Shown here: in pieces, positions 22,203 through 40,954 of the stretch
Position numbering within the stretch: position 1 is the stretch's first letter
Layout: the number at the start of each line of letters is the position of its first letter
From: Acinetobacter sp. XH1741
Lineage (GTDB): Bacteria; Pseudomonadota; Gammaproteobacteria; Pseudomonadales; Moraxellaceae
NCBI RefSeq assembly: GCF_041021895.1
Contig: NZ_CP157428.1
Coordinates: forward strand, 2,356,001-2,420,000
Reading direction: 5' to 3'
Length of the DNA: 64,000 bases
Notes under the pieces: generated by a model
Seen by the model: only the letters and a program-made list of their open reading frames with translations
The model's database searches: none
Told to the model about the DNA's origin: nothing
Translations under genes and position numbers: made by a program

Positions 22203-23441
22203 ATGAATAAATTTAAAATTGTTGCTTATGGTTTTTTATCTGGATATATATATTGTTTTTTAACAATCACTCTTCAAGCAGTTTTTGCTACGTTAGGGTA
22301 TGATATTTCATTTATTTCATCTTTAGTTTTTGCTTTACTTCCATATTCTTTTAAATTTTTATGGAGTGGTTTTGCTGATTCGGTTAAAAAGGAAAATATA
22401 GACTATTTAATATCATTTTTTGCTCTTTTGATATGTTTGTCATTTATTGTTTTAATATTTTTTTCAAAGATTACAATGTTAATTTTTATGTTAATGTTGT
22501 TTAATATTGCATTTCTTGGAGCATGCTTCGATATTTTAACAGATTTAAATCTAATTAAAAATTTTTCAGATGAAAAAAGACCATTCTTTCTTTCATATTA
22601 TATTGGTGGGTGGAGGTTGTCTTCAATATTCGCAGGTGGTGCGGTTTTATTTATTTTTAATAATTTATTTGATAAAAATATTGATTTTTTATTTTTGTTT
22701 TCATCATTTATTTTTTTTATATTCTTAAATATATTTAATTTTACAACAATAAAAAAATTTTTAGCATTTATTTTGAAAAATAAATTATATTTTTTTCTTA
22801 TAATTCCTTGCACTTCTTTTTTATTTATATTGAAAACTAGTTTTACTAATTTTAAAGAGTCATTAATTATTTTTTTGAATTTGAAAGAATTTTATGTATA
22901 TTCTTTATTTTATAAGTTATTTGATTTAACATTATCATCATTTGTCGTTGTGTTTTTTATTAAGGAACTTAAACTATCTATTGAATTTTTTGGAATAATC
23001 AATACAATAGTTCCTCTTTTATCAATTTTAATTCTAAGTCATTTATGGAAATTTACAAGTAAAATTTTTTCACTTAAAGAAATAATGCTTTATTCTTTGT
23101 TGATTAAATCAATAACTATAATAATTTTTATGCTTCTTAATTTTTTAAGTTTAAATATTAATTTATTCTTATTAATAGCTTTTATATTAAATGTTTTTTC
23201 ATCAAGTTTTATTACTTATACTTATTCCAATTATATTATGCAATCTGTTCAAGGAGATAACTCTTCATTTAAATACTCTATATTATCGTCTTTACCTATG
23301 CTATTCTTAGTTGTTTCAGTTCCATTTTCTTCTATTTTAATTTCTAAATATAATTGGAATATATTTTTCTTCTTTATATTGTTTCTTCAAATTTTTAGCT
23401 ATTTATCAATTAATAATATAGAACTAAAAAAAAATAAATGA
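22203..23441 (+). CDS. MFS transporter, AmpG/RhtX-like
   Basis: About 12 hydrophobic helices fill this 412-residue protein. The N-terminal pattern GYDISFISSLVFALLPYSFKFLWSGFADS matches the AmpG-type MFS subfamily (muropeptide permease AmpG and siderophore importers RhtX/FptX), in which P-Y-x-x-K-F-L-W ends helix 2. These relatives usually import; here the neighbouring enzymes suggest transport of the cluster product or a precursor in either direction. The gene is extremely AT-rich (5 G/C in 60 bases at 22681-22740) and has no clear ribosome-binding site. It converges on the minus-strand operon, ending 6 bases before it. Confidence 0.75.
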   Translation: MNKFKIVAYGFLSGYIYCFLTITLQAVFATLGYDISFISSLVFALLPYSFKFLWSGFADSVKKENIDYLISFFALLICLSFIVLIFFSKITMLIFMLMLFNIAFLGACFDILTDLNLIKNFSDEKRPFFLSYYIGGWRLSSIFAGGAVLFIFNNLFDKNIDFLFLFSSFIFFIFLNIFNFTTIKKFLAFILKNKLYFFLIIPCTSFLFILKTSFTNFKESLIIFLNLKEFYVYSLFYKLFDLTLSSFVVVFFIKELKLSIEFFGIINTIVPLLSILILSHLWKFTSKIFSLKEIMLYSLLIKSITIIIFMLLNFLSLNINLFLLIAFILNVFSSSFITYTYSNYIMQSVQGDNSSFKYSILSSLPMLFLVVSVPFSSILISKYNWNIFFFFILFLQIFSYLSINNIELKKNK

Positions 23442-23447
23442 AATATT

Positions 23448-24314
23448 TTATGTGAAAATATCATATACATCATAATTTGAAAACTTATGAATATATTTCA
23501 CAATAGATACAGAAAACTCATCAAAATTTATTTTATTTTTACTATAAAGATCATAAAAACCGTATGGTCCACATAAATGCATGGCCGCTAAAATTCCAGA
23601 TAAAATACCATCATCATAGAGTTTAAAAAGTTCATAAAAATTTGATTCAGGATACTTATTTTCTTTAAAGATCATTAATAGATCTATTCCCTTGGAAATA
23701 TTAAAAAGTTTCTTTAAAACTTTTAAGTTATAGTAAAATGCTTTAATTATAATTTTTTCCTGAATTAAAGGAGATTTTAAATCCTCAAAGTTATTTAAAC
23801 CTACTAAACCTTTAAATTCACCTTCCCATAAATTTACATGTGTCGCTATAATCCCCTTATTTAAAAACTCATTGTAAGTATAATATTCAGTAACTCCATC
23901 ACTCCAAAACTTGTCGTCAATACCACCTATATAATACGAATCTATTAATAAATTTTGTCTTAGCTTTTTACTAGGAGTGTAAATTTCTAAGTCATAAAGT
24001 AATGCTTCACCAAATTGGTATCCAATAAAACCTAAAGCATTTATAGAATGATATTGCATATTTTTTATGCAATCAGGATTAGTAGCATCAAATAAATGAG
24101 CTATACCTAAAGTACAAAAGTATTCATATACAGTTAATTTCTTAGAAAGTGGTCTTCCAGTCATATAATCTCGTTTAACAACACCTGGATACTCAACATC
24201 ATAATAGTCAATAACTTTATTATTATAGTTGTTAATGTACCAGTTAAATTTATTTGGTGATATACCAGATTCTTGCTCTAATAGATCATTTAAAAAAAGA
24301 GAAAAAGATTTCAT
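23448..24314 (-). CDS. Unknown 288-residue protein, last gene of the leftward operon
   Basis: I do not recognise the family with confidence. A conserved-looking core runs ALGFIGYQFGEALLYDLEIY, then VNLWEGEFKGLVGLNNFEDL and SPLIQEKIIIKAF, faintly recalling a G-x-Y-Q-F-G-E...W-x-G-x-x-x-G pattern of lysozyme-like or cell-wall-associated proteins; that resemblance is weak. No signal peptide or membrane segment is present. GAGAA precedes ATG at 24314. It lies downstream of the acyl-CoA-dehydrogenase-like gene and is probably co-transcribed, so a role in the pathway or in self-protection is possible. Confidence 0.6.
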   Translation of the reverse strand: MKSFSLFLNDLLEQESGISPNKFNWYINNYNNKVIDYYDVEYPGVVKRDYMTGRPLSKKLTVYEYFCTLGIAHLFDATNPDCIKNMQYHSINALGFIGYQFGEALLYDLEIYTPSKKLRQNLLIDSYYIGGIDDKFWSDGVTEYYTYNEFLNKGIIATHVNLWEGEFKGLVGLNNFEDLKSPLIQEKIIIKAFYYNLKVLKKLFNISKGIDLLMIFKENKYPESNFYELFKLYDDGILSGILAAMHLCGPYGFYDLYSKNKINFDEFSVSIVKYIHKFSNYDVYDIFT

Positions 24315-24392
24315 TAATAGTTCTCACATTTTATGCAAAAAAAAGATATTAAATTGTTAAGATTAAATAATTTACTCATAAAAAATTTTATT

Positions 24393-25514
24393 TTATAATT
24401 TAACTATTTTCAATAGTTCAGATATATTACTATTAATCCTATTATTGTTGATCATAACTAGAGAAGATAATGAATCTGAGATATTTTTTGTAATACTATA
24501 TTCTGAATTATTATTATATCCTATAATCCCTAAAACTTTAAGACAATTTAGACATATATCAATACATAATTCTGATATTTGTGGTTTCATAGAAGTGAGT
24601 TCTATTTTTTTTGTAAATTCTTCACAATAGCCATTACTGAATGAAATTAAATTACTAAGTATAGAGTTTTCCATCAAAAGTAAGTTATTATAAATTTCAG
24701 CAACTTTGATGCCATTTTCATCATTAATTTTATAATACTTTAATGTCTTATCAAAGGCATTTGAAGCTATTCCTAACCAACATCCACTCCATAATAAATG
24801 ACTATAGGGTAATATAACTTCATTAATTATTTTACTTGAAGAACATAATAATATATCTGACTCATTAAATTCAGAATTTAAATCATATCCATTGCTACAT
24901 GTTCCTCTTAAACCCATTGAATTCCATACACTTAATAGTTCTAAAGTATACTTTTCTTTTGTTAAATAGATAAATACTTGCTTATTGTTATAGTCATTGG
25001 CTGTTAATAAAATAGCATCTGCATAGTCAGCATAAGAGATAACTGGGCATTTTTTATTTAAAAATAATAAATTATTTTTATTTTTTACAATTTTTGTAAT
25101 GCTTTTAGAGATATCTCCACCTTTTCCTATTTCAGAAGTGGCAGACGCAATTAAAGTCTGTTCTTTAAAAATATTATATAGTAAAGTTTCATTACATTTA
25201 TTGTTGATAATTGCATATAACTGGGTAATATGCATAGCATATATCATACCAGTTGAAGCACATTCTTTTGATAAAATATAGATAAAATAAAAATGGTCAT
25301 ATAAATTAAATTGATAAGGGTTATCTTTTAAATTAATTATTGTAGTTAAAAGTTTTTTTTCTTTCAACTTGGAGAAAGTCTTATGTGGAAATATTGATTT
25401 TTCATGGACAACTTTACTTTCTGATTTTAATACAGGAATTATTTCTTTATTAATAATTTCTAGTGCTTTCTTAAATGAAACTGAAAGATTTTTCTCTATT
25501 TTGCTTATATTCAT
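24393..25514 (-). CDS. Acyl-CoA dehydrogenase-fold flavoprotein
   Basis: The order of blocks fits the acyl-CoA dehydrogenase superfamily: an N-terminal helical domain, then TLIASATSEIGKGGDISKS (flavin-binding strand region), LLSVWNSMGLRGTCSNGYDL, and a C-terminal helical domain. The usual catalytic Glu near the C-terminus (Y-E-G in dehydrogenases) has no obvious counterpart; that region reads SLVMINNNRINSN. Relatives lacking it include flavin-dependent N- or C-hydroxylases such as nitrososynthases, while PltE-type members oxidise prolyl-carrier proteins. Here it may oxidise a carrier-bound amino acid or an amino sugar. Three bases separate it from the glycosyltransferase gene. Confidence 0.75.
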   Translation of the reverse strand: MNISKIEKNLSVSFKKALEIINKEIIPVLKSESKVVHEKSIFPHKTFSKLKEKKLLTTIINLKDNPYQFNLYDHFYFIYILSKECASTGMIYAMHITQLYAIINNKCNETLLYNIFKEQTLIASATSEIGKGGDISKSITKIVKNKNNLLFLNKKCPVISYADYADAILLTANDYNNKQVFIYLTKEKYTLELLSVWNSMGLRGTCSNGYDLNSEFNESDILLCSSSKIINEVILPYSHLLWSGCWLGIASNAFDKTLKYYKINDENGIKVAEIYNNLLLMENSILSNLISFSNGYCEEFTKKIELTSMKPQISELCIDICLNCLKVLGIIGYNNNSEYSITKNISDSLSSLVMINNNRINSNISELLKIVKL

Positions 25515-25517
25515 TAA

Positions 25518-26294
25518 TTAGTTTCCTTCTAAATAGGCTATGTGGTTTTCTAATTGTTGCTTCAATGCAGGGAATTCGGTAAAAAATCCTTCATATTTTT
25601 TTAATAAAATTTTTGATTCTTTTACTCTTAAATTATTAAATTCTGGAGAAGTCATTCTTATTTTATCATGATTATGTACTTTAACTTTAGCCTTACCAGA
25701 TATAAAGTAGGGAGTGAAACCTTTGGATAAAAGTCTAATAAAAAAATCTGTATCTTCTACTACTTTAATTTTTTCATCAAAAAAATTTTGTTGTTTATTA
25801 ATATGTGAAGATCTTATAGTAACACCATGACCTATACCTATACTAAGTAGTTTTTTAAATATATCAATTTTCTTTTTGAAAACTTCAGTTTTTTCTGGGG
25901 GATCAACATAGCAACTATTATTAATGTATTGGACTGAGCACCAAGTTATTGAAATATTAGGATTTTCACTTAATACATTTAATGAGTCTTCTAGAAAAGT
26001 TTCACAATACTCATCATCATCCTCTAAAAAACTTATATACTTGCCTAAAGCTGCTTTAATACCTATATTTCTGGCTGTAGCAGCTCCAAGGTTTTCATGA
26101 TTCTGAATATAATTGATCTTAAAATTGAATCCCTTTAATTGTTCGTGATCAATTTTTTCTGTAGAACCATCGTCTACTACTATTACTTCATAATCTTTGA
26201 AAGTTTGTTTTTCAACACTATTAAGGCTTCTAATTAATTCGTAAGGTCTATTAAATGTTGGAATAACTATTGAAAAAGTTGGACTACTTTTCAT
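25518..26294 (-). CDS. Family 2 glycosyltransferase (GT-A fold)
   Basis: The first 100 residues are a classic GT2 domain: FSIVIPTFNRPYELIRSLNS, then DYEVIVVDDGSTEKI and AATARNIGIKAALGKYISFLEDDDEYCE with the D-D-D metal/nucleotide-sugar motif. At 258 residues it is a short soluble form without membrane helices. It would transfer a sugar from a nucleotide-sugar donor to an acceptor. It sits in the leftward operon 268 bases after the thymidylate-kinase-like gene. The product of this cluster may therefore be glycosylated, or the enzyme may handle an activated intermediate made by the nucleotidyltransferases. Confidence 0.85.
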   Translation of the reverse strand: MKSSPTFSIVIPTFNRPYELIRSLNSVEKQTFKDYEVIVVDDGSTEKIDHEQLKGFNFKINYIQNHENLGAATARNIGIKAALGKYISFLEDDDEYCETFLEDSLNVLSENPNISITWCSVQYINNSCYVDPPEKTEVFKKKIDIFKKLLSIGIGHGVTIRSSHINKQQNFFDEKIKVVEDTDFFIRLLSKGFTPYFISGKAKVKVHNHDKIRMTSPEFNNLRVKESKILLKKYEGFFTEFPALKQQLENHIAYLEGN

Positions 26295-26562
26295 TATATC
26301 GAATCCTGATTCTAAAATAACTTATACTCTAAAATTGATATTTATTAATAAAAAATTATCTATTTATAAGGTTAATTAGCTTCTTTTAAAGAAAATTGAG
26401 TGGTTTTTTACTATCTTTTTTAGAAGCTAGTTTTAATATTTTGATGTATATAATCAATGTGAACTCCTCCAAACTATATTTTTCATTTTAAATATATAAT
26501 ATTCTCATTTGAAAATATTTCTATAGTATAAATTATAAAATTCAAACAAATAGTAAATTAAA
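26295..26562. other. AT-rich gap inside the leftward operon
   Basis: The 268 bases between the thymidylate-kinase-like gene and the glycosyltransferase gene hold no gene. A separate promoter for the glycosyltransferase, flavoprotein and unknown genes could lie here, but no strong boxes stand out in such AT-rich DNA. Confidence 0.35.
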
Positions 26563-27228
26563 TCAATTGTTTAAATTTCCTACTAGCTCAATAAATTTAA
26601 GTTTAATTCTATTAAATACATCATGCTTTGTGCCTGAACCATCAATTCGAATACAGTTGTCATCTGCCAATTGACATAATGCATTATGAAAATTTTGTAG
26701 TTCTTCAAGTGGTTCGTAATCTGTTCCTCTATCATTAACTCTCTTATATGCAATTTCAGGAGGTGTATCTATCCAAAATACGAAGTCATATTTTTTTGCA
26801 GACTCATAAACATCAATAATCTTATTGATATCATTGCAATTATTCGCAACTGCTAGGCCGAGTCGACAAAAGTTTGTACGTGGTTCAATAACATCTATAC
26901 CAGTATTGATACAAGGTAAAATAGCACTGTAATGATGTCGTACAGCACTAAAGGCTTTAGCTAATTCAAAAGGATATGTTCCAAAATAGCTTCTTGGAAG
27001 CATTGAATTTTGTCTGCTTATTGCTGTAGCAAGTTGAGGAACTAAATCATCCTTAGGTTCACAAACATAACACTGCCGTTTTAATGACCTTAAATATTGA
27101 CCTAACATACCTGCTTGCGTTGATTTCCCGGCACCATCAAGTCCTGTAAACCCTATATAGAGTGAGCGATTTGAAAAATCGGTACTTTTTATTTTCTGTA
27201 TTTCTTGAACAATACCACTTGTAAGCAT
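26563..27228 (-). CDS. Thymidylate kinase-like nucleotide kinase
   Basis: The P-loop GLDGAGKSTQAGMLGQYLR near residue 30, the DxxEPR-like segment GIDVIEPRTNF and the lid region YKRVNDRGTDYEP place this 221-residue protein in the dTMP kinase family, which phosphorylates nucleoside monophosphates. It is surely additional to the housekeeping tmk, which is not expected beside such genes. AAGGAGTTTTGAA before ATG is a strong ribosome-binding site. With the amino-acid-kinase-fold and NDK-like genes it could extend a phosphate chain on an unusual alcohol or nucleoside. Confidence 0.8.
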   Translation of the reverse strand: MLTSGIVQEIQKIKSTDFSNRSLYIGFTGLDGAGKSTQAGMLGQYLRSLKRQCYVCEPKDDLVPQLATAISRQNSMLPRSYFGTYPFELAKAFSAVRHHYSAILPCINTGIDVIEPRTNFCRLGLAVANNCNDINKIIDVYESAKKYDFVFWIDTPPEIAYKRVNDRGTDYEPLEELQNFHNALCQLADDNCIRIDGSGTKHDVFNRIKLKFIELVGNLNN

Positions 27229-27401
27229 TTCAAAACTCCTTATATATTATTTATTGGACAAAGATAGATATTTATTTTTATCTATATCTAAATTGTTCCA
27301 AAAATATAATTTCTATTTCATATTTTGTTAAATTCTTATAGAAACTTAATATTTATATTAATAAAGTTGCTACAAGAGTTTTAGTAAAACATGAATAAAT
27401 G

Positions 27402-28130
27402 TTAATTATTACTATAGTAAACTCGTGTGGATAATGTATTTTTATTAAGTAAAGTATCTTGTAAACGCTCAGAATACTTGCCATTTATAATGAGACATTC
27501 ATTAATAAAGCCATGCGCTATCCATTTTGCAAGACAAACATCAATTGAAGTATGTCCTATTTTTACAATATCAGCTGCTGAAGCAGATTCTATTGGTTTT
27601 TGTTTTAATAGGTTTCCACAAATATCCAGATCATAAATACCATCTACATCCGTGAGTACAATCAATTTTGGTGCTCCTACTTGCCAAGCAATCCAACCCG
27701 CGATTGCATCAGATGTAATATCCCAACTATATTCAACTGGATCTAAAGACATTATAAGTTGTGAGGGTAGAAGAATAGGTGTCTTTAAGTTGTCTAACGC
27801 TATTCGGATATCTTTAAAATTTCGACAAGTCAATGATGCCTTTGAGTAATAAGGATCTGAAAGAATTAATCCTATTTGATCTTGAGCTAAGGCACATGCC
27901 TCATGAGCTGTTGGCATAGTAAATTTTCTTTTGGCATAAATCTCTTCAATAGATTTATCTGGCGGCCCCCCACCAGGCACAACTAATAATCTAGCTCCAT
28001 TCTGTGAAGCTTCATTAATTATTTCAAGCAAAGCACCGGCTTCTTCTGGGTCTTTTAAAAGACTTCCACCAAATTTAATGACTAAATCTATATTTAGGTC
28101 TAGGTAACCAGAAATATTCTTTTTATTCAT
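27402..28130 (-). CDS. Amino-acid-kinase-fold kinase (MfnE/FomA/uridylate-kinase-like)
   Basis: The fold is shown by VIKFGGSLLKDPEEAGALLE, RLLVVPGGGPPDKS and DITSDAIAGWIAWQVGAPKL followed by VLTDVDGIYD. The I-T-S-D-x-I-A pattern with T-D-V-D-G-I-Y is closest, from memory, to MfnE, which adds a phosphate to an aminomethyl-furan phosphate in methanofuran synthesis; FomA of fosfomycin pathways and isopentenyl phosphate kinase share the fold. All of these phosphorylate small phosphorylated molecules. I chose ATG 28130, directly after the ligase stop, over an in-frame TTG at 28163. Substrate unknown. Confidence 0.75.
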   Translation of the reverse strand: MNKKNISGYLDLNIDLVIKFGGSLLKDPEEAGALLEIINEASQNGARLLVVPGGGPPDKSIEEIYAKRKFTMPTAHEACALAQDQIGLILSDPYYSKASLTCRNFKDIRIALDNLKTPILLPSQLIMSLDPVEYSWDITSDAIAGWIAWQVGAPKLIVLTDVDGIYDLDICGNLLKQKPIESASAADIVKIGHTSIDVCLAKWIAHGFINECLIINGKYSERLQDTLLNKNTLSTRVYYSNN

Positions 28131-28131
28131 A

Positions 28132-29088
28132 TTATCTACTACCACGTATGAACGCTGTGTCAACTAATTGTTTTACTAGTTCATCAAAAGATATACCAGC
28201 AGCTCGGGCTGCATCAGGATAAAGACTAGTTGGGGTCATACCCGGTAAAGTATTAGTTTCAAGTAAATAAATTTCTGAAGAATCTGTAATGATAAAATCT
28301 GATCTTGATAGATCTTTACAACCTAGTACTTGATGGGCTTGGATGGCTATCTCTGAGGCGCGTTCATATACATCTTGCGGTAGTTGAGCTGGTACTACAT
28401 GCTGACTGGCACCCTCAGTATAACGGTGCTCAAAATCATACCATTGACCGAGTGGAGTGATTACTTCAACTATAGGTAAAGCTTTAATTTGTGTATGATC
28501 TTCTAAAACTCCTATCGTGATTTCACGACCAATAATTCTCTTTTCCACAACAGCTTCTGCGCTATTATCAAAAACTCTCTTGATTGAAGAGGCAATATTT
28601 TGACTTCCTTGAGCAAACTCAATCCCTAGAGCAGATCCTTGATCACAAGGTTTGATTACAACATCATTTCCAACATTTTTTAAAATATTATTAACAACTT
28701 CTTCTATTTCTTCATCTCTATTAATGGTAATACCTAATGCACAAGGAAGTTTCGCAGCCGCAAAAATCAACTTTGCTGTAGGTTTGTGAAGTGCACATGC
28801 ACTAGCTTTAACGCCACTGCCAACGTAAGGTAGGCCTAGTATTTCAAGAAAACCTTGAATAGTCCCATCTTCTCCTATAGCTCCATGTAAAACTGGGAAT
28901 ACAACATCAAAGTTGTCATTAATCAACTTTTTTGGAAGCTCACTATCGAGTTCAAGTACATGAATATCCGCATATGAATTTCTTAAAGCTTTAGCTACAG
29001 CGTTAGCTGAACTTCTTGATACTTCAGATTCGGTGGAGAAGCCACCACAAATAATAGCAACTTTTAATTTTTTCGTTGCATTTTCCAT
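28132..29088 (-). CDS. D-alanine--D-alanine ligase paralogue 1 (ATP-grasp)
   Basis: This 318-residue protein is a complete Ddl: KVAIICGGFSTESEVSRSSA (conserved Glu), PVLHGAIGEDGTIQGFLE, GLPYVGSGVKASAC, the ATP-grasp block VIKPCDQGSALGIEF, then DFEHRYTEGASQHVVPA with the active-site Tyr, and YLLETNTLPGMTPTSLYP with the Mg-binding Glu and Asn. All usual residues are present. ATG 29088 follows AAGGATTTAACT and was chosen over an upstream in-frame GTG. It heads the leftward operon. It could ligate two D-amino acids of the product, or protect the host from a product that inhibits the housekeeping Ddl. Confidence 0.85.
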   Translation of the reverse strand: MENATKKLKVAIICGGFSTESEVSRSSANAVAKALRNSYADIHVLELDSELPKKLINDNFDVVFPVLHGAIGEDGTIQGFLEILGLPYVGSGVKASACALHKPTAKLIFAAAKLPCALGITINRDEEIEEVVNNILKNVGNDVVIKPCDQGSALGIEFAQGSQNIASSIKRVFDNSAEAVVEKRIIGREITIGVLEDHTQIKALPIVEVITPLGQWYDFEHRYTEGASQHVVPAQLPQDVYERASEIAIQAHQVLGCKDLSRSDFIITDSSEIYLLETNTLPGMTPTSLYPDAARAAGISFDELVKQLVDTAFIRGSR

Positions 29089-29786
29089 AGTTAAATCCTT
29101 CTTTAGTTTTAGTTCATAATTTTGGTTCACAAATAAATTACTTTACTTCAATCTTTATAATCAAAGATGTGATTTAGTATTATTCAGTGAAGAAAAACAA
29201 TAATTTACCATCTGATTTGTTTTCTGAATTGCATAGTATTCATATATATTCATCAGATAAAAGCAGCTATTTGTTTTTTGCTTACTTTAGTATATTAATA
29301 ATTGATGTTTGCAAAAAATTAAATTTAGTTTTGTTAGTCTTTTGTATATGTCATTGGGCTTGTAGCTAATTATAATTCACATTATTCATATATATATTGC
29401 TATAATTTTTTGTTTTTTGTGTATTGATTGAATTTCACTATTTTTAATATAAAACATATACTTATATATAATATTTGGTATAAAAAATTATATGATTTTT
29501 TTTTTGATTTATTAATTTTTGTGAAATGGATATTATTAATTTTATTTCTCAATATTTGACTTGCAATTTTTTTTTATTATCTTTATAAGATGTAAAAAAC
29601 ATAGAGGAGAGTGATTTTTAAATTTTATAACTAAAACTTAAAGTGTAATAATTAGTTGTTTGCTTAGTAGATTGTTGAAAATATGAGTTTTAATAAGTAT
29701 TTAATGTCTATATGCGCTTATTAATTTTTTTAGCATTTATAAGTGTTTAATTAATAAAATAATACTTGTAATTTAGAGGTTATAAT
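29089..29786. promoter_or_regulatory. Divergent control region between the two cluster operons
   Basis: About 700 bases of extremely AT-rich, apparently non-coding DNA separate the two head-to-head ligase genes, so promoters for both operons must lie here. The longest frame (60 codons from 29187) is low-complexity and lacks a ribosome-binding site; I reject it. One reasonable rightward promoter is listed separately. No clear operator dyad was seen. AT-tracts of this kind are typical H-NS-binding DNA, which is inference. Confidence 0.6.
29561..29589 (+). promoter_or_regulatory. Candidate sigma-70 promoter of the rightward operon
   Basis: TTGCAA (29561-29566) and TATAAG (29584-29589) are spaced 17 bases, about 200 bases upstream of the second ligase gene. 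A TTGACT overlaps the -35. In DNA this AT-rich such matches are easy to find, so confidence is low. Confidence 0.35.
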
Positions 29787-32291: not shown

Positions 32292-33526
32292 AGAATCTCG
32301 CTTATTATGGCGGCAAACCAAGTGTTGAGAAAAGCTCTTTTATTCCTTGGCCTGCTCCAAACACTAATCATCTACATGCACTTCAGAGAGTATTAGATAG
32401 TGGAAAATTTCATCGTGTTAATCACCCACTTATTGAGGAACTCGAAGCTCGAAGTAGAGAATATTGTGGAACTCAGTACTCTAGAGCAGTTTCTTCTGGA
32501 AGTGCTGCTTTACATGTGGCAACTAACTATTTTGCGGAAAAAGGTAATTCAGCAATAGTTTGTGCACTTAATTGGCCAGGCGCTATAGCTGCTATAGCAC
32601 ACTGTGGTCTAGATCCTATTTTTGTTGATACAGCTGAGGATGGTTGTATTGACGAAGCTTCTGCAATATCTCATATGGATAAAGAAAATGTTTCTTTAGT
32701 GCAGATTACACATCTTTTCGGTAATTGTGCTTCTAGAAATAAACTTCGTTCATATGCTCGAGCAGAAAATATAGCGATAATAGATGATTGTGCACAAGCA
32801 GCAAATGTCCCCCGGTATTTGCAACATACTCTGCATTTGGAAAGTGATGCATATATCCTTTCAGGAAATGGGGCAAAACATCTAGCTTCTGGTGAATTAG
32901 GTTTACTTAGCACTAACTCAATAGGATTAATCGAACATGTTGATAATGTGTCCTTAAGTAGCTCCTCACGCAACGGCGAAAGAATATTTTCTCCATCCTC
33001 TCTCGGTTATAACTATCGCCCTAATGTTTTCTCTGCATCTATTGCAATTGATAGATTTAGTGAAATTGATGAACAAATTAAGATAAGACGTGAAAATGCA
33101 CAATATCTAGTTACTCATCTTGAAAAGTTACCAGGAATTAATCGCCTCTTTGGAATGGATTACGAGAGTAGCGGTTTTTGTTCAGTTCCCATGAGAATTA
33201 ACTTTAAAGCATTAGGATTACCTGAGACGGCCGAGGTACGTAATAGAATAGTTGAATTATTAGCTGCCGAGAACGTGCCCGTAACCGTCTGGTTAACACG
33301 TCCAGTGTGGGAATATATTCCTATATGGAAAAATAAATATGATTTGGATAATTATCCAAATACAAAAGCTATTTTGAACTCCATGTTCTGTATTTCTGAA
33401 ATTGCCCCGCCCAATGGAATTTCTCAACTACATGCAGTGGTTCAAGCTTTTGAAAAGGTATGGGAAGCAATAAATATCTTTGGTATTGAATTGTTTGATA
33501 CGGAGAGGGGCAATTGTGAAATTTGA
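32276..33526 (+). CDS. DegT/DnrJ/EryC1-type PLP aminotransferase
   Basis: The 416-residue protein has the family marks: SSGSAALHVATNYFAEKG, the cofactor Asp in IIDDCAQAANVPRY, the PLP-binding Lys in LSGNGAKHLASGELGLLST, and SLGYNYRPNVFSASIAIDRF. The extended substrate region looks most like inosose aminotransferases and AHBA synthase-type members. It should put an amino group on a keto-sugar or keto-cyclitol, usually with Gln or Glu as donor. It overlaps the gene before it by 16 bases and the DXS-like gene after it by 11, so the three are translationally coupled and likely act in sequence. Confidence 0.85.
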   Translation: MQKKLKNLAYYGGKPSVEKSSFIPWPAPNTNHLHALQRVLDSGKFHRVNHPLIEELEARSREYCGTQYSRAVSSGSAALHVATNYFAEKGNSAIVCALNWPGAIAAIAHCGLDPIFVDTAEDGCIDEASAISHMDKENVSLVQITHLFGNCASRNKLRSYARAENIAIIDDCAQAANVPRYLQHTLHLESDAYILSGNGAKHLASGELGLLSTNSIGLIEHVDNVSLSSSSRNGERIFSPSSLGYNYRPNVFSASIAIDRFSEIDEQIKIRRENAQYLVTHLEKLPGINRLFGMDYESSGFCSVPMRINFKALGLPETAEVRNRIVELLAAENVPVTVWLTRPVWEYIPIWKNKYDLDNYPNTKAILNSMFCISEIAPPNGISQLHAVVQAFEKVWEAINIFGIELFDTERGNCEI

Positions 33527-35210
33527 TCTTACTACACTTAAAAAAAGTACTTATCTTGATCTAGATAGTTTCGCAAAAAATTTAAGAGAATATTTAAAAA
33601 TATCCATCGAAATGTCTGGTGGACATTATGCAAGTCCACTGGGTGTTGTAGGGATTACCGTAGCTGTACACTATGTCTTTAATTCTCCACAAGATAAACT
33701 TATTTTTGATACAGGACATCAATGCTATGCACATAAAATAATTACAGGCAGACACGAAGATTTTAAATTTATTCGTCAGGCCCATGGTATCAGTGGTTTT
33801 CCTGAACCTACAGAGTCTAATCATGATCATTTTCGTGTTGGACACGCTGGTACTGCATTAGCAATAGCTATGGGGCTTTCAGTGATTCCTTCTGATGACT
33901 GGGTAATAGTTATTGTTGGAGATGCTGCTTTTGCAAATGGTGTTTCGCTAGAGTCACTTTTACTAATACATAAAGCTAAACGTCCAGTTCTAATTATAGT
34001 AAATGATAATGGGCACAGTATTTCAGATGCAGTGTCTTCATTACGAACTCTGAATTCTTCTCGTTATGAAGCCTTGGCACTAGCTGCAGATATAGATTTT
34101 GCTGGCACTATAAATGGTAATGAACCTCTTGATTTAGCAGTTAAACTAAAAAAACTCAAAAATTTGGGAAAGAGCTCATTAATCCATGTGTCTACCGTTA
34201 AAGGCTATAGTGATGAGTATGCTTCTTCTAATCCATTTAAATATCATGCAATTCAGTCAGTAAAAAGAAAAAATCTTTTTCCGGCTTCAAAAGAAAGTTC
34301 ACAAGAAGTCTTGAGCCAATTTTTGATTAATGCCGCGCATAAATCAAAATTATTTTTTATTTCGATAGGAATGGCTGAGACAGCAGGTTTTGGTCGTATT
34401 GTAAAAGATAGTAAAATTCACTATTTAGATGTAGGTATTGCAGAGCATACTGGCTTTACAATTGCCGCAGCAGCTACTAAAAGTTTTGATTTGACTTTCA
34501 TACATATATATTCAACTTTTTTACAACGTTCCGCAGATGCACTTTTACATGATATTGGTGTTAATCAATCTCCAGTAGTTTTATTAGTTGATAGATGTGG
34601 TCTTGGAGCTGAAGATGGTCCTACACATCATGGAATTTATGACTTAGCAATTTTAAGGTCATGTCCAATGATGGAAGTGTACTCTTGTTCAAATAATAAT
34701 TTATTTAATATAGTTCAAGAATTATTCTGGAAAAAAAGAAGTGCTCCTTTAGCAATTCGTATTTTTAAAGGAGGACTAATTAATAACTCAGAAAAAACAA
34801 TTTTAGACAGGACAATGGGTATCTGTACTCATCGATATGGCGATAATATAACAATTATTAGTCATGGTAGAATTCTTGAAGAATGCATAAAAGCTGCTGA
34901 TATCTTAGAAGAAAATAATATTACTTGTAATGTAATAGAATTAATTAAACTACATCCTATTAGTGAAAATACCGTATCTTATTTTCAAAATAAAGGGCCA
35001 GTAATTATTGTTGAAGAACACGCTGAAACTGGTTCAGTAGGAAATATCATTGGTGCAATGTGGAAAACACTAGTACCCCTTAAGCAAGTATATATTACTA
35101 ACAAATTAACTCCACATGGCGATATTTTTTGGCAATGGGAAATCAATAAAATTGACTCCAGTAGTATTGCTAAGACTTGTCTAGAGTTTCTTGATGAAAT
35201 TAAACTTTAA
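33516..35210 (+). CDS. DXS/transketolase-like thiamine diphosphate enzyme
   Basis: Blocks match 1-deoxyxylulose-5-phosphate synthase: SGGHYASPLGVVGITVAVHY, FDTGHQCYAHKIITGRHEDF, VGDAAFANGVSLESLL with IVNDNGHSIS (thiamine diphosphate/Mg site), LDVGIAEHTGFTIAAAATKS (catalytic Glu) and DRCGLGAEDGPTHHG. The usual G-D-G of the cofactor motif is G-D-A, and at 564 residues it is shorter than housekeeping DXS (about 620-640). I start it at GTG 33516, preceded by GGAGAGGGG. Coupled to the aminotransferase, it probably builds or lengthens the ketose that is aminated. It is not the cell's only dxs by context. Confidence 0.8.
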   Translation: MKFDLTTLKKSTYLDLDSFAKNLREYLKISIEMSGGHYASPLGVVGITVAVHYVFNSPQDKLIFDTGHQCYAHKIITGRHEDFKFIRQAHGISGFPEPTESNHDHFRVGHAGTALAIAMGLSVIPSDDWVIVIVGDAAFANGVSLESLLLIHKAKRPVLIIVNDNGHSISDAVSSLRTLNSSRYEALALAADIDFAGTINGNEPLDLAVKLKKLKNLGKSSLIHVSTVKGYSDEYASSNPFKYHAIQSVKRKNLFPASKESSQEVLSQFLINAAHKSKLFFISIGMAETAGFGRIVKDSKIHYLDVGIAEHTGFTIAAAATKSFDLTFIHIYSTFLQRSADALLHDIGVNQSPVVLLVDRCGLGAEDGPTHHGIYDLAILRSCPMMEVYSCSNNNLFNIVQELFWKKRSAPLAIRIFKGGLINNSEKTILDRTMGICTHRYGDNITIISHGRILEECIKAADILEENNITCNVIELIKLHPISENTVSYFQNKGPVIIVEEHAETGSVGNIIGAMWKTLVPLKQVYITNKLTPHGDIFWQWEINKIDSSSIAKTCLEFLDEIKL

Positions 35211-35265
35211 ATTTTATTAAGGATTTAAATTTAATATTTATTAATTTATAGATGAGGTTATAATT

Positions 35266-36543
35266 ATGGAATATATAGAAAGCCTTCCTAATAGATATTC
35301 ATACCTTCTCAAAAAAAAATCAAATTTTTATGATTGGTTTATAAGTTCGAAAGTTTATATTAGTAGTAAAAAAATAAATATAAAACAAATACTCTACTCA
35401 TTAGAAATTTTATTAGAGGAATGTGAAAGTTTAAGAATTAAATTTAAAATATTTAATGAAGAAATTTTTGAGTTTATAGAGGAAGTATATAATGTAGAAA
35501 ATTATATTGATATTGGTTGTGTTGATGCAATAAAAAAAGATGATATTGAAAATAATATTATTTATAGGATAAATAAATATAAAGGCACACTAGGTGGAGA
35601 TAAAGAATTATTTAAATTATTTATTACTATAGATGCCAATGAAAAATTTTATATATATTTTTTAGTTCATCATATTACTTGTGATCTAATTTCATATGTA
35701 ATGATAAAGAATAGATTTTTTAATTTACTTGAGGACCCTAAGATTGGTGAAAAAATATCATACAAAGAATATGTCGAAGAGGTAAGGAAATATTGGAAAA
35801 ATGAAAAAAATTTAAAAGATAATATTATATTTTATTGGAAAAATTTTTATTTAAGGAAATTTGATAGTCTAGGTGAATTTGATGGTCAACTTTTACTAGA
35901 GAAGAATTCAGAAAAAATAGAAATAAAACTAACTGGTAATATAAAAGAAATTATTAATAGAATTAGTAAAAGGGATTTGGCTATTGCTTTATTAATTTCA
36001 TATTCAAGAGCACTTTACTTTTGGTCAAATGGTAAGATGAAAAATAACTTAATATATCTTGTATATCATGGAAGAGAATATTTTGGTAATAAAATAAATA
36101 GTGCTAATCTAGTTGGTTGGTTAAATCAAGTTTTTCCGTTTTCTATAGAAAATAGTTTGCCAGCAGAAAAACTTATAGAAATTTTAAGAACACAAATGTA
36201 TTATATGTATGCTAATAGTTCTAGTTATGGAATTTTAAAATATATTGTCAAACTTCCGTTGTTAGTAAATATTCCTGAGGCACAAATATCTATAAATATT
36301 GCTTTAGAAAATAGAGAAATAAATTTAGATGATGTTGAAGTAGCAAATATCAATATAGAAAATAAAATGAATGAAAACTCAGAACGTGCTTTTATTTTAA
36401 GTAGTGGGTTTTATATTAGGGATGGTAGTTATTGTTTTTCCATAGATTTTTCAAATAAAATTTATTCTAGTATTTCTATTAATAATCTTTTAACTAAATT
36501 TAAAAGTGAATTTAATAATTTTTTGGTAGATAGTTATGCGTAA
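35266..36543 (+). CDS. Free-standing NRPS condensation domain
   Basis: The catalytic motif of condensation domains is present as FLVHHITCDLISYVMI (His135, His136, Asp140; the usual final Gly is Leu), followed by the typical SYKEYVEEVRKYW bridging helix and GWLNQVFPFSIEN. At 425 residues it is one complete C domain with no A or carrier part attached. It should take an aminoacyl group from the carrier protein and place it on an amine or hydroxyl of the pathway molecule. GAGG lies before ATG 35266. It overlaps the adenylation gene by 8 bases. Codon use is extremely AT-rich. Confidence 0.8.
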   Translation: MEYIESLPNRYSYLLKKKSNFYDWFISSKVYISSKKINIKQILYSLEILLEECESLRIKFKIFNEEIFEFIEEVYNVENYIDIGCVDAIKKDDIENNIIYRINKYKGTLGGDKELFKLFITIDANEKFYIYFLVHHITCDLISYVMIKNRFFNLLEDPKIGEKISYKEYVEEVRKYWKNEKNLKDNIIFYWKNFYLRKFDSLGEFDGQLLLEKNSEKIEIKLTGNIKEIINRISKRDLAIALLISYSRALYFWSNGKMKNNLIYLVYHGREYFGNKINSANLVGWLNQVFPFSIENSLPAEKLIEILRTQMYYMYANSSSYGILKYIVKLPLLVNIPEAQISINIALENREINLDDVEVANINIENKMNENSERAFILSSGFYIRDGSYCFSIDFSNKIYSSISINNLLTKFKSEFNNFLVDSYA

Positions 36544-37960
36544 TTTTATTGAAATATTATTTTCTAAAACTAAAGGAAAAAATAATGCTGTAATCTACAA
36601 AGGAGTATCATATTCTTATGATAAACTTTATAAAGATGTAATTCAGTACTCTTTGTCAATAGGAGGTAGAGTTGAGTCAAATAATGGCCAAAAAATTGGT
36701 TTTATGTTTGATAAAAGTTATAACTCTTTATGTATATTACTGGCTATAATGCATAGTGGAAATACGTATGTACCTTTGAATAAAAAAACACCAAAAAATA
36801 GATTGATAAATATATTAAAAAATTATGGTATAGAAAATATTATTTCTGATGAAAATTTTATTATTGAAGGAGTTGATATTATAAATCTAAATGATTTAAA
36901 AAATAGTAACAATATTATTTGTAATTACAATAATTCAGAAAGAGACTATGCGTATATAATTTTTACTTCAGGAAGTACAGGATTGCCTAAAGCAGTAGGA
37001 ATTTCTTATTTTAATCTTCAATGTTTCCTCGATTCAATGAAAGAAGTTGTTGATATAACTGAAGATGATAGAGTAAGTTTTTATGCGGATTATTTTTTCG
37101 ACTTCTCGATTGCTGAAATATTTTTAACTATAGGTAATAGTGCTTGCTTAGTAATACCAGATGATTTTGAAAAAAGAAATCCATTAAAATTTGTTGAGGA
37201 AAATGAAATTACTATTTGGATGTCTGTTCCAAGTTATGTAAATTATTGCATGGAATTAAATAAGATTAAAAAATATATTTTAAATAATATCCGTATCACT
37301 ATATTTTGTGGTGAAGGATTGCCCGTTCAATTAGCAAGATCATGGTTAAATATTGTCCCAAACTCTAAAGTTTACAATGCATATGGTCCAACAGAAGCAA
37401 CTGTTTTTTCGACAATATATCTTTTTGATTTAGATATAGATTATGAGACTTATCTATTGCCAATTGGTACTGATCTAAAAAATATTAAATCAAAAATTAC
37501 GTTAACAGATGAAAAAGGAATAGGAGAATTATTTCTTTCTGGGGGACAAGTTTTTTCTGGATATTTATTAGATGAATGTATAAATGAATGGTATGGAACA
37601 GGTGATATAGTTTATAAAGATAAAAATGGAAATTATAATTTTGTCTGTAGAAATGATTTCCAGATAAAACGTAATGGATATAGAATTGATATCAATGAAA
37701 TAAAAAGTATTATAAAAAATAGTTTAAATAATATTGAATTGGAAGTTATTGATTTAGATTTAGATGATGTAAAAAAAATAATATTTATAATAAATAATAA
37801 AATAGATGTTTTAATTGTTAAGAATATTATTGATGATAAATTGGAGTCATACATGAAGCCTGATAATATTTTGGTTTTAGATAGGTTTCCTCTAAATCAA
37901 AATGGCAAGTTGGATTATAGTAGTCTTAAAACTATTGCTAAAGAAATTTTATCAACTTAG
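36536..37960 (+). CDS. Free-standing adenylation domain, DltA-like
   Basis: All core motifs of amino-acid-activating enzymes are visible: YIIFTSGSTGLPKAVGIS (about 140-157), FFDFSIAEIF with the amino-group-binding Asp189, FCGEGLPVQLA, NAYGPTEATVF, YGTGD (353-357), NDFQIKRNGYRID and the final catalytic Lys in NQNGKLDY. The F-C-G-E-x-L-P block, with Cys258 in the pocket, resembles D-alanine-activating DltA, where a Cys at this place favours D-alanine. So a small amino acid, perhaps D-Ala, is a reasonable guess; the pocket code is not decisive. 474 residues, no fused domains. Confidence 0.85.
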   Translation: MRNFIEILFSKTKGKNNAVIYKGVSYSYDKLYKDVIQYSLSIGGRVESNNGQKIGFMFDKSYNSLCILLAIMHSGNTYVPLNKKTPKNRLINILKNYGIENIISDENFIIEGVDIINLNDLKNSNNIICNYNNSERDYAYIIFTSGSTGLPKAVGISYFNLQCFLDSMKEVVDITEDDRVSFYADYFFDFSIAEIFLTIGNSACLVIPDDFEKRNPLKFVEENEITIWMSVPSYVNYCMELNKIKKYILNNIRITIFCGEGLPVQLARSWLNIVPNSKVYNAYGPTEATVFSTIYLFDLDIDYETYLLPIGTDLKNIKSKITLTDEKGIGELFLSGGQVFSGYLLDECINEWYGTGDIVYKDKNGNYNFVCRNDFQIKRNGYRIDINEIKSIIKNSLNNIELEVIDLDLDDVKKIIFIINNKIDVLIVKNIIDDKLESYMKPDNILVLDRFPLNQNGKLDYSSLKTIAKEILST

Positions 37961-37974
37961 GAGTAATATATTTT

Positions 37975-38850
37975 ATGTTTTACCTTTCTAATAATATTTT
38001 TGAATTTAATAATTACTTTGAAAAATTATTAGGTCAAAGTATTAATGATTTACTATGCACTTATGTTCATGATAATAATCAGGCTTTATTTTTATTAGTT
38101 GGTTCTATTCCGGAAGGAAATGCTAGTGAAGTTTCTGATATAGATATAATTTGTATAACTAATTATGAAAATATAAATTTTAATACTAAAGATAATGCTG
38201 TTTTTAATGGTTTTTATTCTTTTGATAATGATCCTTTAGCTTTTTTTAATAAAGTTGTATTTTACAATAATATTGAATTTGATATTTTATTTGTTTCGCA
38301 AGATAAAATCACTCGAATATTAAATAGATTGGATCATACAAAATGTAACTTCACTGTGCAAGAACTTCATGTTTTTTCTAGAATATTTAATAGCTGGTCT
38401 ATCTATGAAACTGAATATTGTCAATTTTTATCTAAAGTAAAAGAAGATGGTAAATTAAGGTTATTTTGTGTTTTGAGAAACTTAGTTGGTGCTTTAAAAC
38501 ATATGGAAGATGCTATTATTCACAAGACTAGAAACCCAAGACTTTATAAATATCTTATCAAATATGCACTGGTTGAATTCATTCAATGTATATATGCAAG
38601 TTTTGATATTTATGATAATGGACATAAATGGTTGAGAAGTTTTGATAAGTTAAATATAGACTCTAAGATAAAGTCTTTATTTTATACTTTATATTTTGAT
38701 GAGTTAACTATTTCAGGAGAAATGTATGAGGAGAATGTAAAGGAATTTATAAATTTAGTTATGAGTTATCTGAAAAAGGATCCTATTCTAAAAATTGCAA
38801 TTAATAGTAATTCACAAGTCAAAAAATATGGGTATATATATGAATATTAA
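37975..38850 (+). CDS. Nucleotidyltransferase-domain protein
   Basis: The motif LFLLVGSIPEGNASEVSDID near residues 42-62, with G-S and the D-x-D pair (SDIDII), is that of the polymerase-beta-type nucleotidyltransferases, the superfamily of aminoglycoside and lincosamide nucleotidyltransferases and MNT proteins. The C-terminal 170 residues are helical, as in ANT-type enzymes. In this operon it may activate an intermediate as a nucleotidyl ester or modify the product for self-resistance. GGAG lies 10 bases before ATG. The end of the gene overlaps the carrier protein gene. Confidence 0.75.
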   Translation: MFYLSNNIFEFNNYFEKLLGQSINDLLCTYVHDNNQALFLLVGSIPEGNASEVSDIDIICITNYENINFNTKDNAVFNGFYSFDNDPLAFFNKVVFYNNIEFDILFVSQDKITRILNRLDHTKCNFTVQELHVFSRIFNSWSIYETEYCQFLSKVKEDGKLRLFCVLRNLVGALKHMEDAIIHKTRNPRLYKYLIKYALVEFIQCIYASFDIYDNGHKWLRSFDKLNIDSKIKSLFYTLYFDELTISGEMYEENVKEFINLVMSYLKKDPILKIAINSNSQVKKYGYIYEY

Positions 38851-39067
38851 ACAAAACGTTATAAAAATCTGGAAAAATCGAACTAAAGATTCTCAAGAGA
38901 AACTTAGTGAGGATTTCTTTGATGTTGGTGGAGATTCATTAGGATCTATTCATTTATTAGTTGATCTAAATAATTTTTTTGAAATAGAGTTAGATCCTAA
39001 TGATTTCTTTTGCTCTCCGACGTTAGGAAACTTAATTAAGATAACTGAACAAAAAATATATGAATAA
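38840..39067 (+). CDS. Acyl/peptidyl carrier protein
   Basis: A 75-residue carrier domain with the phosphopantetheine attachment motif DFFDVGGDSLGSIHLLVDL; Ser33 would carry the arm. EIELDPNDFFCSPTLGNL is the expected helix 3 region. I chose ATG 38840 because it gives the normal length of a PCP; in-frame starts at 38828 and 38795 exist. It overlaps the nucleotidyltransferase gene by 11 bases. It is the likely partner of the adenylation and condensation proteins and possibly of the flavoprotein. No phosphopantetheinyl transferase lies in the window. Confidence 0.85.
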   Translation: MNIKQNVIKIWKNRTKDSQEKLSEDFFDVGGDSLGSIHLLVDLNNFFEIELDPNDFFCSPTLGNLIKITEQKIYE

Positions 39068-39126
39068 AATTAAAATATATTTAAAATTTTTAAATAATAA
39101 ATATATTTTAAAAAATTCTGTTCCCT

Positions 39127-39173
39127 GGTGCATGGGTTTTGATTGAGGTGGTTTACCATGTGCCTCGTTTTTT
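39127..39173 (+). terminator. Hairpin plus T-tract between carrier and deacetylase genes (terminator or attenuator)
   Basis: GGTGCATGG (39127-39135) pairs along its full length with CCATGTGCC (39156-39164), two G-T pairs included, followed by TCGTTTTTT. It is a GC-rich patch in very AT-rich DNA, inside what otherwise looks like one operon, so it may reduce or regulate expression of the last two genes. Confidence 0.55.
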
Positions 39174-39247
39174 AAATATAAATTATTTCATATCACTTGA
39201 GAAAGGATATTTTGATGTATCTTAATAAACTAAAACTAGGAGAAAAA

Positions 39248-40036
39248 ATGTCATTAAAACCTTTAATTATTTGTATATCACCGCATCAAGATGATATTGC
39301 GTTATCTATTTCTTCATTATTACATGAATTATATACAAAAAATATAGAAGTTCAATGTAAGTTGATAAGTTGCTTTACCAGAACTAATTACGCTCCCTAT
39401 TTGAAAAATAAAAGTGTTGAATATATTAGTAGGGAAAGAGAGTTAGAAGATAGAAAATATGTAAAAAAAATAGCTTTAGATATGATCGAAGTAATCAGTA
39501 TTGGTATGAATGATTCTCCTCTTAGAGAAGAGTGGGATACAAAGTGTGATATTTATCGACCTGATAATTATTATAAGCATGATAAAAGTGAAATTATGCG
39601 ATATATCCATGAATTGTTCGATAAATTATCTAGATATCCAGAAAAACCAGAACTTGCAATTTTACCACTTGGACTCCAACATAAAGATCATGTAATAGTA
39701 TCGAAAACGAGTTCAATGAGGTTTAAAGAAGCTCCAATCCTAGTATATGAGGATATACCGTATAGATTTGATATGAGTAATGATGATATTAAAGATAGAG
39801 TAAGAGATATTGAGTTATCAATTGGTAAAAAATTATTTACAATAAAAAGCAAGTATAAATTTAATCTGAATTTATGGGTTAATCTATTAAATAGTTATGC
39901 CTCACAATTTTCTAGAGAAGAAGTTTTAAATATGGCAAATAAGTTAAATAATATAGGAGGTGAAAATTATTGGGCATGCAATGACGCAATAAATTTATTG
40001 GAAAGTATGGGTTTTGAGCTTAGTATTAGTATGTAA
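39248..40036 (+). CDS. PIG-L/LmbE-family N-deacetylase
   Basis: The zinc-binding motif is at the start as CISPHQDDIALSISSLL (family P-H-x-D-D), with a second metal/catalytic segment LPLGLQHKDHVIVSKTS (H-x-D-H). PIG-L enzymes remove acetyl groups from N-acetyl sugars and related amines; examples are MshB, BshB and the deacetylases of aminoglycoside and teicoplanin pathways. ATG 39248 has an ideal AGGAG five bases upstream; an earlier ATG at 39215 with its own AAGGA is the alternative. A protecting N-acyl group removed late in the pathway would fit. Confidence 0.8.
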   Translation: MSLKPLIICISPHQDDIALSISSLLHELYTKNIEVQCKLISCFTRTNYAPYLKNKSVEYISRERELEDRKYVKKIALDMIEVISIGMNDSPLREEWDTKCDIYRPDNYYKHDKSEIMRYIHELFDKLSRYPEKPELAILPLGLQHKDHVIVSKTSSMRFKEAPILVYEDIPYRFDMSNDDIKDRVRDIELSIGKKLFTIKSKYKFNLNLWVNLLNSYASQFSREEVLNMANKLNNIGGENYWACNDAINLLESMGFELSISM

Positions 40037-40062
40037 TTTTTTAATTGATAAGAGGTAGTTAG

Positions 40063-40899
40063 ATGAACAAAAATATAGTAATTATTACTGGAAATAAACC
40101 ACATATGAATTATTTTGTATCAGAAATGGCAAAAAAATTAAATGTAGTTTCAGTTTTTTATTTTAAAGTTTGGAAACGACCAACTTCAAGAACCCTAGAA
40201 TATTTTAAAAGCAAAGAATTTAGAAGTAGAAATAAACTATCATCATCTATAGCATATGATATTTTGGGAGAGAATAATATTGGTTATAATTATGCGGACG
40301 ATATATTTAAAAATAATTTGAAAATAAAGTCAATTCCAGCATATCATTGTGAAGATATAAACTCAGATAAAGTTATAGAGAAAATAAAGAAGCTTAGACC
40401 TGATATCGTTTTTTGTCATGGAGGGCCGATATACGGAGAAGGTATAATAAACTGTGCTCCTCTAGTTATTAATTTTCATTCAGGAATCTCACCAAATTAT
40501 AGAGGTGCACATTCTCATCTCTTTGCATATATAGATGGATCTAAAAATGATATAGGGGGCACTTTGATGAAATTAAACAGTAAAATTGATGGTGGAGATA
40601 TAATAAGACAATGCAGACCAATAATTAAACAAAGTGATACACCTAAGGAAATTTTTGTAAAAATCATGGAATCAGGTTGTTCTCTAGTAATAGATTTTAT
40701 CGAAAATTATCAAAATAATAATGAAATAAAACTTGAAAAACAGATTGACAAAGGGAAATATACAAAAAACTCTGATTTTAATTTTAATAAATTATTAAAA
40801 TATTATTATAGAAAGCTTGTAGGGTTTAAATTTAAAGCATATAAGCTTGAGCAGACTAAACTCAATCGTGAGCTTTTTTACATTCCTTATTTAGAATAA
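40063..40899 (+). CDS. Formyltransferase-family protein (Fmt/PurN-like)
   Basis: Family marks are RPDIVFCHGGPIYGEGIINC, then VINFHSGISPNYRGAHSHLF with the Asn and His of the catalytic triad, and GGTLMKLNSKIDGGDIIRQC with the Asp. These enzymes use 10-formyl-tetrahydrofolate to formylate amines, including amino-sugars in polysaccharides and amino acids in natural products; a few relatives carry out other one-carbon transfers. At 278 residues it has the catalytic domain and a short helical tail. AGAGGTAG precedes ATG. It ends the rightward operon, and with the deacetylase before it suggests exchange of one N-acyl group for formyl. Confidence 0.8.
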   Translation: MNKNIVIITGNKPHMNYFVSEMAKKLNVVSVFYFKVWKRPTSRTLEYFKSKEFRSRNKLSSSIAYDILGENNIGYNYADDIFKNNLKIKSIPAYHCEDINSDKVIEKIKKLRPDIVFCHGGPIYGEGIINCAPLVINFHSGISPNYRGAHSHLFAYIDGSKNDIGGTLMKLNSKIDGGDIIRQCRPIIKQSDTPKEIFVKIMESGCSLVIDFIENYQNNNEIKLEKQIDKGKYTKNSDFNFNKLLKYYYRKLVGFKFKAYKLEQTKLNRELFYIPYLE

Positions 40900-40954
40900 T
40901 TAATGTTAATTTGTTGTATATGCACAAGTGTATTAGATATTTTGCTCTAGACAT

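Follow-up and report, generated by a model that had tools for sequence, protein, structure and literature searches.

A composite, horizontally acquired biosynthetic gene cluster in Acinetobacter sp. XH1741 with an inner core and an outer cassette of different relatives

In the D-cycloserine cluster of Streptomyces a Ddl and a transporter are proposed for self-resistance, according to a review (PMC6804068), and Ddl is also found in the Acinetobacter cluster described here. A plasmid cluster of Acinetobacter sp. SAAs474/SAAs470 (NZ_CP127913, NZ_CP127894), for which the existing annotation goes gene by gene only, holds 15 of the 17 genes of the present cluster, whole or in pieces, with 50-81% amino acid identity. 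Parts of it also have relatives in rhizobial operons (e.g. L023, L026 and L012), where a DegT aminotransferase, an MfnE-like kinase, an NDK-like protein and a small nucleotidyltransferase-like (NTase-like) protein are encoded in one run, and in plasmid clusters of Vibrio lentus and V. nigripulchritudo (NZ_AP025501, NZ_AP027047). To our knowledge few natural products are known from Acinetobacter beyond siderophores, and beyond Ddl we know of no gene in common with the D-cycloserine cluster. Among the matches listed in the family libraries and in the part of the literature consulted, a scope with MIBiG outside it, no known cluster matched gene by gene, in agreement with the statement of an earlier note on this DNA that no pathway known to it has this set.

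The window, i.e. the whole stretch of 64,000 nucleotides analysed, contains 17 open genes between positions 22203 and 40899 according to its ORF calls; the large biosynthetic cluster proposed in the earlier note is present, with one gene fewer than the estimate of about 18. The genes are laid out as two divergent runs, both headed by a Ddl gene, and a separate transporter gene, which is convergent with the minus run and has to be added as a third unit to the two divergent operons previously described. The tight overlaps attributed to the cluster occur in five of the 16 neighbouring pairs and not elsewhere, the remaining gaps within a run reaching 268 bp. The divergent runs are separated by an intergenic region of 656 bp (29131..29786) located between Ddl-B and Ddl-A. 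No Rfam match was found over 19800-43100, this region included, and promoter-like sites over 21900-41150 were not more frequent than in shuffled sequence. The gene families originally named largely hold, with both nucleotidyltransferases weakly supported; three cluster proteins have no Pfam hit, a 291-aa nucleotidyltransferase-like protein among them.

The adenylation gene is present in three of 175 genomes of the genus, the present one counted. In one relative (G160) all 17 genes are found in conserved order with 86-99% amino acid identity. Since the set exists in G160 and on plasmids, the objection that it might be conserved in no other genome, which the earlier note had raised against its own reading, fails. 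The plasmid copy differs in that the block encoding the condensation, adenylation, nucleotidyltransferase-like and carrier proteins is inverted, the DXS gene is split by an IS3 transposase gene and the condensation gene is in two pieces. These interruptions, together with the very low GC content, could be taken as signs that the island is dead or decaying and its genes neighbours by chance, a reading that we find hardly credible because all 17 frames are open in the window and in G160, with dN/dS of 0.09-0.41. Against the plasmid copy dN/dS is 0.09-0.28 at dS of 1.19-1.62 (12 genes compared). The dS to G160 is 0.47 for the formyltransferase gene, whose frame in G160 has 257 residues instead of 278, and 0.03-0.21 for the remaining 16 genes. 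A related genome (G007) shows the site without the cluster, and the left flank in G160 is the same. The cluster is thus a real, selected and horizontally acquired unit.

Uncharacterised as the cluster is, it is not the single unit for which it was taken: it is a composite of an inner core and an outer cassette with different composition and different relatives, and this two-module make-up is new. The inner core (GC 29-38%) comprises two Ddl-type ligases, a DegT aminotransferase, three kinases and a DXS-like enzyme, and the outer cassette has a GC content of 20-27%.

Among the kinases of the inner core, the thymidylate-kinase-like P-loop kinase (26563..27228, minus strand; Pfam 55 bits), with its P-loop at residue 29, scores under the dTMP kinase equivalog cut-off. 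The amino-acid-kinase-fold (AA_kinase, AAK) protein (27402..28163, minus strand), which has rhizobial relatives, finds its best NCBIfam family in MfnE, the methanofuran/methylofuran kinase, with 123.5 bits, well short of the curated cut-off of 300; in the tree the MfnE rows form a separate clade of 11, of which nine are archaeal. The third kinase is the NDK-like protein fused to a nucleotidyltransferase-like domain (30972..32291, plus strand; NDK Pfam 29.7 bits). The NDK half of this fusion was confirmed by fold (target-normalised TM 0.72-0.80 among the 50 matches listed), and for the other half there is a weak match of residues 279-351 to TM1012 (E 0.0027). The DegT/StrS aminotransferase (32276..33526, plus strand; Pfam 155 bits) has 2-deoxy-scyllo-inosose aminotransferase as its best solved relative (72 bits), with sugar aminotransferases close behind. 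The DXS-like thiamine-diphosphate enzyme (33480..35210, plus strand; DXP_synthase_N 210 bits) falls under both equivalog-level cut-offs (363 bits vs 395 and 352 bits vs 466). Its GHxAS, IAE, STFLQR and DGxTH segments, which we take to be the catalytic segments of 1-deoxy-D-xylulose-5-phosphate synthase, align with solved DXS, and the arginine of YPRG is replaced by lysine.

The two D-Ala-D-Ala-ligase-type ATP-grasp proteins, Ddl-B (28132..29130, minus strand; 280 bits) and Ddl-A (29787..30809, plus strand; 293 bits), both exceed the cut-off of 245.65 of the Ddl subfamily model TIGR01205 and share 34-35% identity with a further Ddl of the genome, presumed to be the housekeeping one. Two active-site positions were checked, presumably the acceptor Tyr and the Mg-ligand Asn (Y216 and N272 of E. 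coli): Ddl-B keeps Y and N, whereas in the three copies of Ddl-A compared the Y position is N, N and C and the N position is E in all. The presence of two such genes, their degree of identity to the presumed housekeeping Ddl, the changes in Ddl-A and the self-resistance role proposed for Ddl and a transporter in the D-cycloserine cluster (PMC6804068) would all suit an antimetabolite, as the earlier note had thought possible, directed against D-Ala-D-Ala metabolism, with both ligases as insensitive spare targets and a product mimicking D-Ala or D-Ala-D-Ala. We regard this as unlikely, given that Ddl genes leading both divergent runs fit biosynthesis equally, and the target suggested before, cell-wall alanine metabolism, would rest solely on the two Ddl genes.

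The outer cassette includes the MFS transporter gene (22203..23441, plus strand; Pfam MFS_1 35 bits), also present in G160 and in the plasmid copy, whose product is distantly AmpG-like (77.6 bits against model TIGR00901, a weak similarity at a cut-off of 350). It is followed by a gene for a 288-aa protein of no named family and without evident signal peptide (23448..24314, minus strand), which on weak evidence may be a lysozyme-like enzyme; its Glu15-Ser16, conserved in all 29 rows, is only suggestive of glycosidase activity. An acyl-CoA-dehydrogenase-like flavoprotein (24393..25514, minus strand) has no Pfam hit and matches NCBIfam FadE16 (59 bits, cut-off 600) and PigA (26 bits), all under cut-off; no match to it was found in the two Vibrio loci. 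The family 2 glycosyltransferase, GT2 (25518..26294, minus strand), reaches 102 bits in Pfam. On the plus strand, the functions of NRPS type are all present and each free-standing: a condensation protein, C (35266..36543; Pfam 57 bits; HHxxxD at 135), an adenylation protein, A (36536..37960; AMP-binding 182 bits), with pocket letters identical in the plasmid copy, and a peptidyl carrier protein (38795..39067; PP-binding 46.8 bits; GGDS at 45-48). Between the last two lies the gene for the 291-aa nucleotidyltransferase-like protein (37975..38850, plus strand), which has a GS...DxD motif, relatives in Vibrio and on the plasmids and no Pfam hit at 0.001; two of its relatives match NTP_transf_2, one below the cut-off (E 0.0032) and one just above it (E 0.00026).

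The plus run ends with a PIG-L-type deacetylase (39197..40036, plus strand; Pfam 34.7 bits), present in G160, and a formyltransferase-like protein (40063..40899, plus strand; Pfam 45.8 bits), neither with a match in the 37-kb plasmid locus. Against a DltA model the A protein scores 226 bits, while the carrier reaches 29 bits against DltC, both under cut-off, and the best NCBIfam match of the formyltransferase is ArnA, also under cut-off. A cell-surface locus could therefore be imagined, with the A/carrier pair in the role of DltA/DltC, decorating a capsule or a lipid-linked sugar together with the glycosyltransferase, PIG-L protein and formyltransferase. This seems quite unlikely: none of the 17 genes (three of them without Pfam hit) could be recognised as a flippase, polymerase or initiating transferase for a polysaccharide, neither a condensation protein nor a pair of Ddl genes would be expected, and PIG-L and formyltransferase were not found in the plasmid copy.

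The product appears to be a small molecule in which amino acids are combined with a unit resembling an amino sugar. That the unit is aminated and phosphate-activated, as proposed in the earlier note, is a fair reading of the DXS-like enzyme, DegT, kinases and nucleotidyltransferase. The C5-C7 size, the D-amino acids and the N-formylation that the note also put forward are more conjectural, and neither PIG-L nor formyltransferase had a match in the plasmid copy. From pyruvate the DXS-like enzyme would transfer an acetyl unit to an aldose phosphate. DegT would aminate the ketone of the resulting 1-deoxy-2-ketose phosphate, which yields a 2-amino-1,2-dideoxy-alditol phosphate with a CH3-CH(NH2) end resembling alanine. 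The kinases may convert the phosphate into a di- or triphosphate and a nucleotidyltransferase domain may lead to a phosphodiester or nucleotide-linked form, while Ddl-A, with its changed acceptor pocket, would couple an amino acid to the amine and Ddl-B would perform a second coupling or serve as spare target. In the outer cassette another amino acid would be loaded by A onto the carrier and transferred by C, the glycosyltransferase, second nucleotidyltransferase, flavoprotein and possible lysozyme-fold enzyme would decorate the product, and the transporter would complete the cassette; deacetylation and formylation would occur in some strains only. We give an even chance to the two joined modules being a horizontally acquired, functional natural-product cluster working by this mechanism.

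DegT, kinase, NDK and probably also nucleotidyltransferase are common to the inner core and the rhizobial operons. Of 18 close genome loci, 12 have DegT, AAK and NDK together, as do two of the three alphaproteobacterial plasmid loci compared, and a small NTase-like gene lies immediately after NDK or one gene on in 15 of 15 loci compared. The rhizobial operons differ in that NDK and NTase are separate genes, fused in the Acinetobacter cluster; the profile match between the NTase part of the fusion and the small rhizobial protein is poor (hhalign probability 2%). In several of these operons the next genes encode a class III aminotransferase and a GMC oxidoreductase, and the DXS, Ddl and NRPS proteins of the window have no match in the rhizobial loci compared. 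AAK and DegT relatives are found also without each other, and in trees long branches separate those of the window and plasmid from the rhizobial rows, so that their function may have diverged. Many rhizobial operons lie near phosphodiesterase and sugar-type ABC transporter genes: the Roseibium and Sinorhizobium neighbours include a phosphodiesterase and an ABC substrate-binding protein, in Sinorhizobium also a permease, and of 15 loci 11, 9 and 6, respectively, contain members of these three families. Such operons may make a phosphodiester or opine-like signalling compound, but that the Acinetobacter cluster does the same is very unlikely, as such uptake genes are not among its 17.

The conserved cluster, its DegT-kinase-NDK-nucleotidyltransferase unit, which recurs in rhizobial genomes and plasmids, and the cassette common to Acinetobacter and Vibrio plasmids offer concrete, testable enzymes. 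Their products may be a novel compound class, amino-sugar-like or antimetabolite.

The Vibrio plasmid clusters have the 288-aa protein, GT2, NTase-like protein, carrier and A in common with the outer cassette. With the Vibrio GT2 as query the Acinetobacter plasmid copies rank immediately below the Vibrio rows. V. lentus also has a C protein, barely like that of Acinetobacter (20% over 162 residues), and the Vibrio A pocket reads, as we take it, like a glycine code. The inner set is different: next to a gene for a class V aminotransferase it has two with the annotation pyrF and one with the annotation dTMP kinase. An unlikely idea is that of a modular antimetabolite family. Its members would have one outer cassette in common, with A, carrier, C, nucleotidyltransferase, glycosyltransferase and an enzyme of lysozyme fold recruited to small-molecule work, and this cassette would be combined with interchangeable warhead modules. 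Each such module would carry an essential-enzyme type in two copies, used for biosynthesis or as a spare target: Ddl in Acinetobacter and orotidine-phosphate decarboxylase in Vibrio.

The cluster, at 22203-40899 in a host genome of 4.0 Mb, holds seventeen genes. These form a minus-strand run from Ddl-B to a 288-aa protein and a plus-strand run from Ddl-A to the formyltransferase, with the transporter gene placed apart from both. The cluster is real, composite, conserved and biosynthetic, and no known counterpart was identified among what was searched. Its product is something that we infer, as are the roles of both Ddl proteins and of the 288-aa, possibly lysozyme-like protein. A reading as a modular antimetabolite family is possible, at low probability.

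The cluster is composed of two modules. GC content per gene is 29-38% in the seven inner genes (TMK-like, AAK, Ddl-B, Ddl-A, NDK fusion, DegT and DXS-like) and 20-27.5% in the remaining ten. The flanks have about 40% GC left of about 18 kb and right of about 42 kb; at 19-22 kb, a stretch left of the cluster, GC is already down to 25-29%.

In the related genome G007, 3 kb of other DNA separates the left flank (up to 19855) from the right flank (starting at 43001); the same left flank adjoins the cluster in the relative G160, and in genome G008 the GNAT gene (21441 in the window) is found within the same left-flank neighbourhood, where no cluster sequence was matched in the 19 kb fetched. From these comparisons, therefore, the cluster was probably inserted to the right of the GNAT gene. 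At the G007 site, the ADH and SDR genes (41131-42952) also lack a match. The formyltransferase gene (40063-40899; compared locus L104) has a dS of 0.47 to G160, against about 0.04 for the two preceding genes, and similarity to G160 stops at 40836, so that the right end of the cluster is perhaps a recombination edge. A TetR-type regulator gene with its upstream DNA (18806-19795) has four more copies among the places scored in the genome (77-80% identity), and is repeated in related genomes as well.

The A gene was found in 3 of 175 genomes of the genus, the window's own included (E 1e-60 or better), and the NDK fusion in one of 38 relatives searched, namely the window's own genome. G168, of the same genus, has a contig carrying the cluster, and G160 has all 17 genes in unchanged order with 86-99% identity. 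The cluster is under selection: dN/dS is 0.09-0.41 over the 17 genes against G160 and 0.09-0.28 (dS 1.19-1.62) over 12 genes against the Acinetobacter plasmid copy, a set leaving out DXS and C, which are in pieces there, and the carrier; PIG-L and formyltransferase were not found in the plasmid copy and hence are outside it.

The DXS-like protein, aligned to solved DXS (2o1s, the E. coli enzyme), keeps the DXS segments, with arginine replaced by lysine in YPRG, so that it could plausibly transfer an acyl group from pyruvate to an aldehyde phosphate. At two positions of the Ddl proteins, equivalent to Y216 and N272 of E. coli, tyrosine and asparagine are kept in Ddl-B, in the solved DdlA and DdlB compared and in the third Ddl gene of the host genome; Ddl-A has N, N and C at the first and E, E and E at the second (window, G160 and plasmid, respectively). 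The pocket letters of the A protein are identical in window and plasmid, and those of the Vibrio A proteins resemble a glycine code. The Vibrio lentus plasmid cluster also encodes two orotidine-phosphate-decarboxylase-type proteins (L013:11708-15999), which resemble different branches of that family.

The NDK domain of the fusion retains the NDK fold and the NLxH histidine motif. Across 15 loci, 13 of which have DegT, a family of small proteins (174-242 residues, with a longer frame in locus L027) comes directly after NDK in 10 and one gene later in 5. Its position and its conserved GS and PNDIDIHH-like motifs suggest that it corresponds to the C-terminal domain of the fusion, but profile comparison of the two was poor.

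After its own copies, the AAK kinase at 27402 is closest to kinases that, where named, come mostly from rhizobia. A scan of 84,980 species genomes gave at least 227 stretches encoding a relative, of which the best 80 were kept. Among these best 80 of at least 227, 18 loci were compared (L021-L037 and L065, some on short contigs): DegT, AAK and NDK occur together in 12, AAK and NDK without DegT in two, and AAK alone in four, including Acinetobacter apis (L025:9992-10696) and A. boissieri (L031:10001-10708), where the kinase family has no DegT or NDK match within the locus. The A. apis locus additionally encodes a large A-domain protein and a phosphopantetheinyl transferase. Two MAGs carry the kinase (L030:462-1160 and L034:10001-11859); in the latter an NDK-NTase-like fusion follows it, in a different setting among complex-I-like genes. 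In Sinorhizobium sp. 8-89 (L028:5052-6614) a single 520-residue frame holds both the AAK and NDK matches, and in a Rhizobiales genome (L021:3060-6311) the DegT-AAK-NDK run is preceded by genes for a YcaO protein and a weakly TPR-like one. Three alphaproteobacterial plasmid loci were compared as well, and two of them have all three genes. A Rhizobium tropici plasmid carries the kinase without an annotated NDK next to it. In trees midpoint-rooted for display only, AAK (100/99) and DegT (100/100) of the window each group with their plasmid counterpart, apart from the rhizobial rows.
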